Under the pieces are notes generated by a model. That model worked only from the letters and a program-made list of their open reading frames with translations, was not told the DNA's origin and searched no databases. The position numbers were made by a program, and so were the translations under genes. 64,000 bases of DNA from Acidimicrobiaceae bacterium (GTDB taxonomy: Bacteria; Actinomycetota; Acidimicrobiia; Acidimicrobiales; RAAP-2), in NCBI GenBank assembly GCA_003132165.1, contig PKWW01000060.1, positions 46,807 to 110,806 on the forward strand, read 5' to 3'. How positions within the stretch are numbered: the stretch's first letter is position 1; each line of letters opens with the position of its first letter. Shown one piece after another: positions 60,629 to 64,000 of the stretch.

Positions 60629-61027
60629 TTAGTTACCGACACGCAGGCTGGCCGATGCGAAGGCAGTGACGTCGGTCTTGTTGTTCACGGCGAACTGGCC
60701 GCGAATCGTCCACACACCGCTTGAGGGGAAGTTGAAGGCGCATTCGACTTGACCTTGCACCACTGCTTGGTAGGAGCACGTCAGATTCGGCGAATCAGAG
60801 ACGCCAGGAGCCACCGCGACAATCTTGACGGCGCCCTGGGTATGTTCGGGCAGTACATCCACAATGATGTTGAACGAACCGTTCGAGGCCGACGCCGGCG
60901 AACTGTTGTCGCTGTAATCGAAGGAAAGTGCCAACTTGTTGGGCGGCGACGTGTCAGCTCCTGCCGGAATCGCCAAGAACCCCATACTGGAAGCCACCAA
61001 AAGAGCAGCACAAATCAGCCGACGCAT
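60629..61027 (-). CDS. Small secreted protein of unknown function
   Basis: Signal peptide MRRLICAALLVASSMGFLAIPAGA; two Cys in TCSYQAVVQGQVECAF. Confidence 0.7.
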   Translation of the reverse strand: MRRLICAALLVASSMGFLAIPAGADTSPPNKLALSFDYSDNSSPASASNGSFNIIVDVLPEHTQGAVKIVAVAPGVSDSPNLTCSYQAVVQGQVECAFNFPSSGVWTIRGQFAVNNKTDVTAFASASLRVGN

Positions 61028-61098
61028 AAAACACACTATATCAATTCTACCAGCGAGTATCGCCGATAATGTACCTTATGTAAAGTTAGAGAATTCGG

Positions 61099-62376
61099 TC
61101 AAGGAGTGCGCGGCTCGAACGGGTACCCCGCGATGGTGGGTCCGCTCTCGTCCTTCACGGCCACGAGATTCGCTACGACGTACGAGATGTTGTGTTCCTC
61201 GTGGAACTGCGTAGGAAAGAAGGTGTAGAGCCGCGAACTCTGAAACTTACACTTGATCTCCGGCACGAAATTGGCGTAGTCCTTCGAGGTGAAGTACCAG
61301 AAGGAATTCTCGTTGTAGTACGCAACATGGGTCGGGTCTTGAAATGCGCCACGGCCGTCGGTGCTCGGAGTGAGCGTCAGCAGTATCCCCCCGTGAGCGA
61401 GAAGCCTATAGAACTCATTGAAGAGGGCCACCTTGTCGGGGATGTGCTCGATGAAGTCGCTGGCCCGGATCACGCCCACTGACCCGTCGGGAAGGTCAAT
61501 GCCCTTCGTCACGTCACCCACGATCTCTACATCGGGGTGTGCGTACAGGTCAACGCCTATAAAGCCTTCGGGCTTGTTGTGGGCCGCGCCGAGGTCGAGG
61601 GCGAGCAGCCCCCGGCGCTTGGACCACGCGAGCGCGTTCGCCTGAATGTTCTCGTCATATATACGTGTTGTCTCACGCTGGATGTGCTGGTTCGTCTCAG
61701 GTTCAGATTGGGTGTTCAACGGATGCATCCTCTGGAGATACAGACATTTGTCAAGGTGAAAGAAGTCGGTCTGCTGGTACATCCGACACATGATGTCCTG
61801 GTCGTCCAGCACGCCCAAGTCAGCGTTGTACCCACCCACCGCCTCGTAGAGGTCCTTGCGGAAGGCGCGGACGTGGTTGGGAGCGAACCAGATGTAACTC
61901 ACGTTGCTCGGCAGAGGTTTCATAGCGCGGCACTCGAGTACAAGGCGCCCATCGACCTCCGTGTCGCGGTTACGCCAGCCCATGTCGGTGTTGAACATCA
62001 CGCCGTTGCGGGTGCCATCCTCATTGATCTGGGCAGTATTGCTGTACACGAAGCCAACGTAGGGATTATCCTCGAACGCCGCAACTACATCCGCGAGCGC
62101 TGTCGAAGTCAGAATATCGTCATGGTCGAGTTCGACGAGATACTCCCCCTTCGCCAAGACGCAGGCAGCGCGCTTCGCTGCGCCAACGCCCATCTTCTCG
62201 GACGTGGCAGAGATCAGCACCCTCTCGTCTTGGACCTTAGGCGTCCAGGAAGCTCCACCATTTAAGAGAACAATCCACTCCCAGTCGTCGAATGTCTGTG
62301 CGAGCAGCGACGCCAGACACTCGTCGAGAAAGATTGTCCGATGACTTGGGGTAAAGACCGAGACTGTGGGCATCAA
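61099..62376 (-). CDS. GT2 glycosyltransferase fused to SAM-dependent methyltransferase
   Basis: N-term VSVFTPSHRTIFLDECLASLLAQTFDDWEWIVLLNG, VELDHDDIL; C-term LALDLGAAHNKPEGFIGVDLYAHPDVEIVGDV...IRASDFIEHIPD. Confidence 0.88.
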   Translation of the reverse strand: MMPTVSVFTPSHRTIFLDECLASLLAQTFDDWEWIVLLNGGASWTPKVQDERVLISATSEKMGVGAAKRAACVLAKGEYLVELDHDDILTSTALADVVAAFEDNPYVGFVYSNTAQINEDGTRNGVMFNTDMGWRNRDTEVDGRLVLECRAMKPLPSNVSYIWFAPNHVRAFRKDLYEAVGGYNADLGVLDDQDIMCRMYQQTDFFHLDKCLYLQRMHPLNTQSEPETNQHIQRETTRIYDENIQANALAWSKRRGLLALDLGAAHNKPEGFIGVDLYAHPDVEIVGDVTKGIDLPDGSVGVIRASDFIEHIPDKVALFNEFYRLLAHGGILLTLTPSTDGRGAFQDPTHVAYYNENSFWYFTSKDYANFVPEIKCKFQSSRLYTFFPTQFHEEHNISYVVANLVAVKDESGPTIAGYPFEPRTP

Positions 62377-62377
62377 G

Positions 62378-62998
62378 TTACTTCAGCGACGGGAAGTTCG
62401 TCGGCACTCGGGTGGCCAGCGACGGGTTGAACTTGATGGCGAGCTTCACTTCCTTCTTCGCCAATGCAACATTGCCCAGCTGGTTGTTCAAGAGACCAGC
62501 ATTAAAGAGCGTGTTGGGATCGTTGGGCTTGATGGCGAGGATCTTGTCGTAGTCCGTCAGGGCCAACGTGGGGTCGGATGTCGTCTCAACGACCGCCAGG
62601 TTGAACAATGCGGGTAGGTACTTGGCGTCGAGCTGGATGGCATTGGTGTAATCGCCAATGGCGACTGCAGTATTGCCCTCGGAGGTGTTGATCACGCCAA
62701 GGTTGTAGTAGGCGTACGTCGCGAATTCGCCGGTGTTTGCCGTGTCTTGGGCGATCACCTGGTTGTAGTAACTGGCGGCCTGGGTGTTGTCGCCATTCTC
62801 CTGGGCCAACAGACCCTTTTGCATGAGTGCCTTGGGTGAATTGTTGGTGGAATGGATGTGTACGGCGACGAGCACCACTGCTCCCCCACCAAGCACGACA
62901 ACCACGGCAAGACCAATCAGCCACCACTTGAGACGCGACGGCTTCTTCACCTTCGCGGGCTCGCTCGTAACATCGGTAACTTTCTCATGATTTGCCAT
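62378..62998 (-). CDS. Membrane-anchored TPR-repeat protein
   Basis: TM WWLIGLAVVVVLGGGAVVLVAV; TPR pattern (YAYYNLGVINTSEGNTAVAIGDYTNAIQLD...); start MANHEK. Confidence 0.8.
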   Translation of the reverse strand: MANHEKVTDVTSEPAKVKKPSRLKWWLIGLAVVVVLGGGAVVLVAVHIHSTNNSPKALMQKGLLAQENGDNTQAASYYNQVIAQDTANTGEFATYAYYNLGVINTSEGNTAVAIGDYTNAIQLDAKYLPALFNLAVVETTSDPTLALTDYDKILAIKPNDPNTLFNAGLLNNQLGNVALAKKEVKLAIKFNPSLATRVPTNFPSLK

Positions 62999-63048
62999 TT
63001 CGGACCTTTCGAAGACTCCTAGTGAAACTTTACAGACACCAAGTTCTA

Positions 63049-63068
63049 ACTCGGTGCACTGACCGAGT
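63049..63068 (-). terminator. Hairpin just downstream of the collagen-like gene
   Basis: Perfect ACTCGGT-N6-ACCGAGT 3 nt after the stop; no clear T-tract, so possibly attenuator or mRNA stabiliser. Confidence 0.4.
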
Positions 63069-63071
63069 GAA

Positions 63072-64000
63072 CTACGCCTGCGCTCCAATTACGAACCAGT
63101 CGATAGTGTCGCCCGTCGGAGCCTGGATGTACGAGATTGTAAAGGTCGTAGACGAACTCCCTTGCACTCCAACCGAGGAATTACTCGTTATCGCACCGGT
63201 ACCACTGAACGATACCTCGACTACATCCGATGAGACTGTGCCGACACCGGTAGGTGTGATCGTCACCGTGTGCAACGTGCTTGAGGTTGCCGTCAGACCG
63301 CCTTGCGATCCAGCAGCGTACGTCATAGTGCCGGGATTACCTTGGGAGCCCTGTGGACCCTGCGCACCGGTCGTGCCTTGCGTGCCCGCTGAACCTTGGC
63401 TTCCGACGGCACCCTGGGCGCCGGTCGAACCCTGGAAGCCCTGAGCACCCTGGAAGCCCTGAGCACCCTGGAAGCCCTGCGAACCCTGGAAGCCCTGAGC
63501 ACCCTGGAAGCCCTGAGCACCCTGACTTCCGACGGCACCCTGACTTCCGACGGCACCCTGGGCGCCGGTCGTGCCTTGTGTACCCGTCGTGCCTTGAGCA
63601 CCGGTCGAACCCTGGGTGCCCGTTATTCCCTGTGATCCAGCTGGACCTTGGCTTCCGACGGCGCCCTGGGCACCCTGGGCGCCTTGGGCACCCTGGCTGC
63701 CAACGTTGCCGGCAATCGAACCAGACCATGAAGCGAACGTTCCTGAACCACCAACTGTGTCGACGTTCACCGTAATCGACGTATTCGCTGTAATCGATGT
63801 AATCAAACCCTCCATGTAATCGGAGGGCGTTGTCGGGTAAACGACTCGAACTCTGTCGCCAACGATGTAGGCACCCGTATTAGCGATTCCTGTGAATACC
63901 TTCGAGCCAGTTCCGATTGTGAATGATGCGGTCGAGACGAACGTTGAGTAACCGAGACCGTTCGAACCCTGCGTACCCGTTGTGCCCGTCGTGCCTTGCG
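63072..64000 (-). CDS. Collagen-like (G-X-Y repeat) protein, 5' end beyond window
   Basis: Frame stays open to base 64000 (QGTTGTTGTQGSNGLGYSTF... upstream of the listed Met); long GxQ/GxT triplet tract; non-collagen C-terminal domain. Confidence 0.88.
   Translation of the reverse strand, partial: QGTTGTTGTQGSNGLGYSTFVSTASFTIGTGSKVFTGIANTGAYIVGDRVRVVYPTTPSDYMEGLITSITANTSITVNVDTVGGSGTFASWSGSIAGNVGSQGAQGAQGAQGAVGSQGPAGSQGITGTQGSTGAQGTTGTQGTTGAQGAVGSQGAVGSQGAQGFQGAQGFQGSQGFQGAQGFQGAQGFQGSTGAQGAVGSQGSAGTQGTTGAQGPQGSQGNPGTMTYAAGSQGGLTATSSTLHTVTITPTGVGTVSSDVVEVSFSGTGAITSNSSVGVQGSSSTTFTISYIQAPTGDTIDWFVIGAQA

Follow-up and report, generated by a model that had tools for sequence, protein, structure and literature searches.

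Glycosylated collagen-like proteins are known mainly from the spores of Bacillus and Clostridioides and from giant viruses. Three described systems supply pieces of the mechanism considered here, and none of them has the same arrangement as our locus. The C. difficile GT2 CDR20291_0242, involved in type B flagellin glycosylation, carries PF00535 and PF08241 in one protein and adds two rhamnoses to a protein-bound glycan; it is also held responsible for methylating these rhamnoses, and rml genes are reported at its locus (PMC5207246). SgtA, a GT2-TPR protein of the same species encoded next to bclA3, transfers GlcNAc onto threonine residues of the collagen region in vitro (PMC7157674). Bacillus BclA is a collagen-like surface (exosporium) protein with a rhamnose-rich glycan (PMC6222408). 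In the openly available literature on bacterial collagen and its glycosylation we found no account of the three-gene module described below.

The window, i.e. the whole stretch of 64,000 nucleotides from an Acidimicrobiaceae genome, ends with three genes, which follow each other on the minus strand in the originally predicted order, as confirmed by open reading frames, sequence and Pfam. These are the 3′ part (308 codons) of a gene for a collagen-like protein (63072..63998, Pfam Collagen 2.7e-20), a gene for a TPR protein of 207 aa (62378..63001, with the ATG at 63001, the stop ending at 62378 and TPR matches at 1e-12) and a gene for a fusion of a GT2 glycosyltransferase with a class I SAM methyltransferase (GT-MTase, 425 aa, 61099..62376, supported by the ORF, Pfam and the AlphaFold model). 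The last position of the window is also the last of contig C16 (110806), which is why the collagen-like ORF lacks a start codon in this stretch; the gene is cut by the assembly and for the same reason cannot be extended in GCA_003132165.1. The same genome (G000) contains more collagen-like repeats or genes near the ends of contigs C32 (L088) and C9 (L089), and the repeats seem to break the assembly at collagen genes. The 1-nt gap noticed earlier between the TPR and GT-MTase genes holds for the TTG start at 62376 (425 aa), while the alternative ATG at 62373 gives 424 aa and a gap of 4 nt after the TPR stop. Further along the minus strand lies an ORF for a small secreted protein with a signal-like N terminus (60629..61036, likely start at an internal ATG). 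A counterpart with 64% identity adjoins the GT-MTase in one congener (G035), and the protein is a possible associate of the trio. The promoter-like site directly upstream of this ORF is at chance level. We consider it quite probable that the trio forms a collagen-like surface glycoprotein module, in which the GT2 would add a sugar, the fused domain would often O-methylate it and the TPR protein would assist outside.

Pfam recognised Glycos_transf_2 (2.9e-13) and Methyltransf_11 (4e-6) in the GT-MTase, which is the domain pair PF00535 and PF08241 of the C. difficile flagellin GT2. This likeness is one of domain content; the acceptor of the C. difficile enzyme is flagellin, not collagen, and no TPR partner is described in the passages considered. 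The AlphaFold model, based on an alignment of 26 sequences (pLDDT 87, pTM 0.87), predicts an N-terminal GT-A domain (about residues 1-225, 61702..62376, minus strand), a long linker helix and a C-terminal Rossmann domain (methyltransferase, about residues 258-410, 61147..61605, minus strand), with residues 340-356 poorly modelled. The top PDB fold matches are GT-A enzymes, e.g. chondroitin polymerase and SpsA, and most of them span the GT half only. The catalytic motifs D84-H-D-D87, D191-D-Q-D194 and LDLGAAHNK are all intact in the window protein. The first of these, the metal/nucleotide-sugar motif (62116..62127, minus strand), is invariant in alignments A1 and A2, and both DHDD and DDQD/E are conserved among homologues. 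The Glycos_transf_2 match, the GT-A fold and the DxD-type motif identify the N-terminal half as a GT2, and the Rossmann domain together with SAM motif I identifies the C-terminal half as a class I SAM-dependent methyltransferase. The fusion is full length and free of stops in most homologues, so the fusion noticed earlier is real.

The methyltransferase half is less uniform among relatives. In the subclade of G045, G115, G733 and G750, the SAM motif I region (LALDLGAAHNK in the window protein, 61573..61605, minus strand) is lost and the rest of the domain is retained, so that the class I assignment does not extend to these proteins. The signature PSTDGRGAFQDPTHVAYYNENSFWY (61294..61368, minus strand) is nearly invariant in the alignments even where motif I is lost, and the GT-MTases without motif I at L090, L087, L100 and L101 still carry the PSTDGRGAFQDP signature. 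To judge from the alignments, these four are possible pseudo-methyltransferases, whose domain may serve another purpose. Methyl capping is not supported as a fixed step. At L100 (G733), close to the contig end, the GT-MTase frame is continuous with a transposase-like stretch at its N terminus, and there is no collagen nearby.

In SgtA/BclA3, too, a GT2 gene adjoins a collagen-like gene and a GT2 is combined with TPRs. However, in SgtA the TPR is fused to the C terminus of the glycosyltransferase and there is no methyltransferase, whereas the GT in the window bears a methyltransferase instead and the TPR part is a separate anchored protein. According to simple hydropathy, from which all TPR topologies were derived, the window TPR protein has a basic N-tail, one TM segment near the N terminus and the TPR part predicted outside, in agreement with the single-TM protein originally proposed. 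The TPR proteins of relatives have a basic N terminus and either a TM segment or a lipobox. In the GT-MTase we found neither a signal peptide nor a TM segment or lipobox. Since the TPR protein is predicted to be extracytoplasmic and the GT-MTase lacks any signal or TM segment, a role of the former as a partner at the surface is more plausible than one as a cytosolic adaptor for the acceptor.

The window copy of the collagen-like gene lacks its 5′ end; in relatives, the encoded proteins begin with signal-like sequences. As the collagen and TPR proteins carry export features and the GT-MTase none, transfer before export is the simplest path. The collagen-like protein would be secreted after the cytosolic GT2 domain has transferred a sugar to it, or to a first sugar already on the collagen. 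The fused methyltransferase domain would O-methylate the transferred sugar in most lineages, and the membrane-anchored, outward-facing TPR protein would probably hold, fold or anchor the emerging collagen chain. In a different route, the GT-MTase would assemble its product, either a methylated sugar or a short glycan, at the membrane on a polyprenyl carrier. This product would then be exported by a multi-TM GT-C-like protein or by an ABC transporter and attached outside the cell, where the TPR protein would present the collagen. This lipid-linked route is a serious alternative, since three Acidimicrobiia-side loci have multi-TM neighbours, namely a YfhO family protein (L032), a 9-TM protein ending in TPRs (L034) and an 8-TM protein with ABC-2/Wzt-like exporter genes (L091). 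It would also fit the predicted outside position of the TPR proteins and the secretion of the collagen, which may thus be out of cytosolic reach. We nevertheless regard it as unlikely, as BLAST shows no likeness among the compared membrane proteins, the GT-MTase lacks TM segments, and the examined Streptomyces loci have no recognised membrane protein of this kind and carry a soluble GT2-TPR protein instead. A common GT-C partner in Acidimicrobiia was rejected, the compared membrane proteins not being homologous by BLAST.

The refuting test set by the original prediction was whether the neighbours co-occur in relatives, and they do, both in loci fetched by homology and in evenly drawn genome samples. 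The genome scan for the GT-MTase recovered 43 loci, most at 59-66% identity, and the fetched actinobacterial loci include Streptomyces, Frankia, Saccharothrix and Acidimicrobiia. Of the approximately 40 genome loci passing the length filter, only L037 (at a contig end), L059 and L070 have no collagen run, defined as at least 8 Gly-X-Y triplets, within 5 kb of the GT-MTase. The functional link, originally a guess, gains strong support from this. An upper bound on the chance of such linkage per genome, calculated from the density of collagen matches per Mb, amounts to about 1-5% for most of the genomes checked, and to 9% and 35% for two. Collagen genes are found upstream on the same strand, downstream on the same strand or convergent; these at least three arrangements switch at least 6 times among the cellular rows of a quick tree with some long branches, on which the arrangement labels were assigned by hand. 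The TPR gene is located directly upstream of the GT-MTase in about half of the loci, mostly with a 4-nt overlap. At L091:7382-12528, the TPR and GT-MTase genes are followed by genes for the 8-TM protein, a Clp protease and the exporter, and at L032:9412-14541 a large open-ended ORF with fibronectin type III domains is situated near the collagen, TPR and GT-MTase genes.

The loci fetched by homology share ancestry and are not independent samples, and therefore we also used evenly drawn genomes. The GT-MTase occurs in 5 genomes of the phylum sample and in 6 of the order sample, each sample comprising 397 genomes. All five phylum-sample carriers have collagen genes somewhere, compared to 106 of the 397 genomes overall (hypergeometric P = 0.0013). 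When both samples are taken together and the window genome is set aside, five of the seven carriers have collagen within 3 kb (G464, G115, G124, G045 and G750); the GT-MTases of the remaining two, G267 and G733, are both near contig ends. The module is real and recurrent and, as far as sequence data can tell, its most likely role is collagen glycosylation, often with methylation. A dedicated modification and display module, as originally proposed, is the best reading and rests on the co-occurrence of the neighbours in relatives.

The identity of the sugar is suggested by the Streptomyces side. In 11 loci (L045, L055, L056, L062-L064, L066, L067, L069 and L071 from the scan, plus L093, the region from G124), the dTDP-rhamnose genes and the collagen gene share a strand in the order rmlA-rmlC-collagen-rmlB-rmlD, and the GT-MTase gene lies next to them on the opposite strand. 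All four rml enzyme types were confirmed by Pfam in L045 and L064. Other Streptomyces loci have collagen and no rml genes within the fetched stretch. In the window genome rml genes are absent from the locus itself and lie on another contig (C4), and we infer that rhamnose may be the sugar in this organism as well. The sugar would be L-rhamnose, supplied by dTDP-rhamnose; this is most likely for the Streptomyces loci and possible for the window organism too. Many Streptomyces loci also encode a second, soluble GT2 with a TPR-like part, which matches SgtA in domain plan only.

As rml genes serve polysaccharides too, the GT-MTase might instead make an extracellular polysaccharide or cell-wall glycan, with the collagen gene merely co-resident in a neighbourhood of surface genes. 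The best NCBIfam matches of the GT domain, such as TuaG, are indeed polysaccharide enzymes, although far below the cut-off. We consider this improbable, since the collagen gene stays with the enzyme despite several rearrangements and is even found inside the rml operon, and no wzx/wzy-type genes were recognised in the examined Streptomyces gene lists. The unrelated polysaccharide locus, which the original prediction named as an alternative setting of the enzyme, was not seen in these lists either. Because the gene set recurs across distant actinobacteria, often with rhamnose genes, it probably serves specifically to attach sugar to bacterial collagen, similar to BclA and SgtA in its logic. In ordinary soil Streptomyces, this recurrent module would provide a genetically tractable non-endospore system whose putative acceptor, donor pathway, transferase and methyltransferase are encoded next to each other, and it could help to understand and engineer bacterial collagen.

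As regards the acceptor, the available part of the window protein has 43 Gly-X-Y triplets in long uninterrupted repeats typical of collagen-like proteins, a non-collagen insert upstream and a C-terminal globular end. Like BclA it is a collagen-like, presumably surface protein, but BclA belongs to the spore exosporium, and Pfam gave no BclA_C match in the available part of the window protein, C terminus included. A plasmid search for the GT-MTase resulted only in partial GT2 matches, in Bacillaceae; in one Peribacillus plasmid, collagen-like and BclB-related genes lie near the gene for a GT2 that shows 30% identity and has no recognised methyltransferase domain. Ser or Thr occurs in 44% of the triplets of the window protein, and Thr triplets may serve as acceptors there, as was suggested earlier. 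This cannot be the general rule, as collagens of the convergent group, mainly Streptomyces, are poor in Ser/Thr, with a median of 8% of triplets versus 48% where collagen is upstream on the same strand (Mann-Whitney P = 0.002, rows not independent) and only 0-1% in several convergent loci. The near absence of Ser/Thr triplets in several Streptomyces collagens, the loss of motif I in one subclade, the location of the rml genes on another contig in the window genome and the lack of the enzyme in most congeners speak against collagen glycosylation.

Phage contigs that carry terminase, tape-measure and tail genes also encode homologues of the GT-MTase, and so does cyanophage S-CRM01. The nearest relative of the window protein is a phage-contig protein (L025, 80%), and most congeners are without the enzyme, so it might be a phage-derived passenger in the window genome, unlinked to the collagen gene. 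This is very improbable given that distant actinobacteria have the same gene order and TPR partner, that the catalytic motifs are intact and that the larger phage records with the enzyme encode collagen too: all four records above 36 kb do, and the three without a collagen-like protein are all below 20 kb. A prophage origin of the window locus was rejected, as the flanking genes, of which the nearest were scanned, resemble ordinary chromosomal ones. Phage collagen-like tail fibres are similar to the window module in that the collagen-like proteins and the GT-MTase are encoded in the same phage genomes, and they differ in being virion parts. We tentatively suggest, as a conceivable rather than a favoured scenario, that actinobacteria and phages share one exchangeable toolkit for collagen glycosylation, with the same GT2-methyltransferase family acting on host surface and tail-fibre collagens outside endospores, and with TPR, rhamnose-synthesis and hydroxylase genes added by lineage. 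Sharing with phages suggests that tail fibres may undergo the same chemistry. On one phage contig (L030:758-8504), a collagen-like tail fibre, a 2OG-Fe(II) oxygenase, a GT2 and a methyltransferase are encoded in a row, the latter two as separate genes, and judging by this gene content the tail fibre is possibly both hydroxylated and glycosylated.
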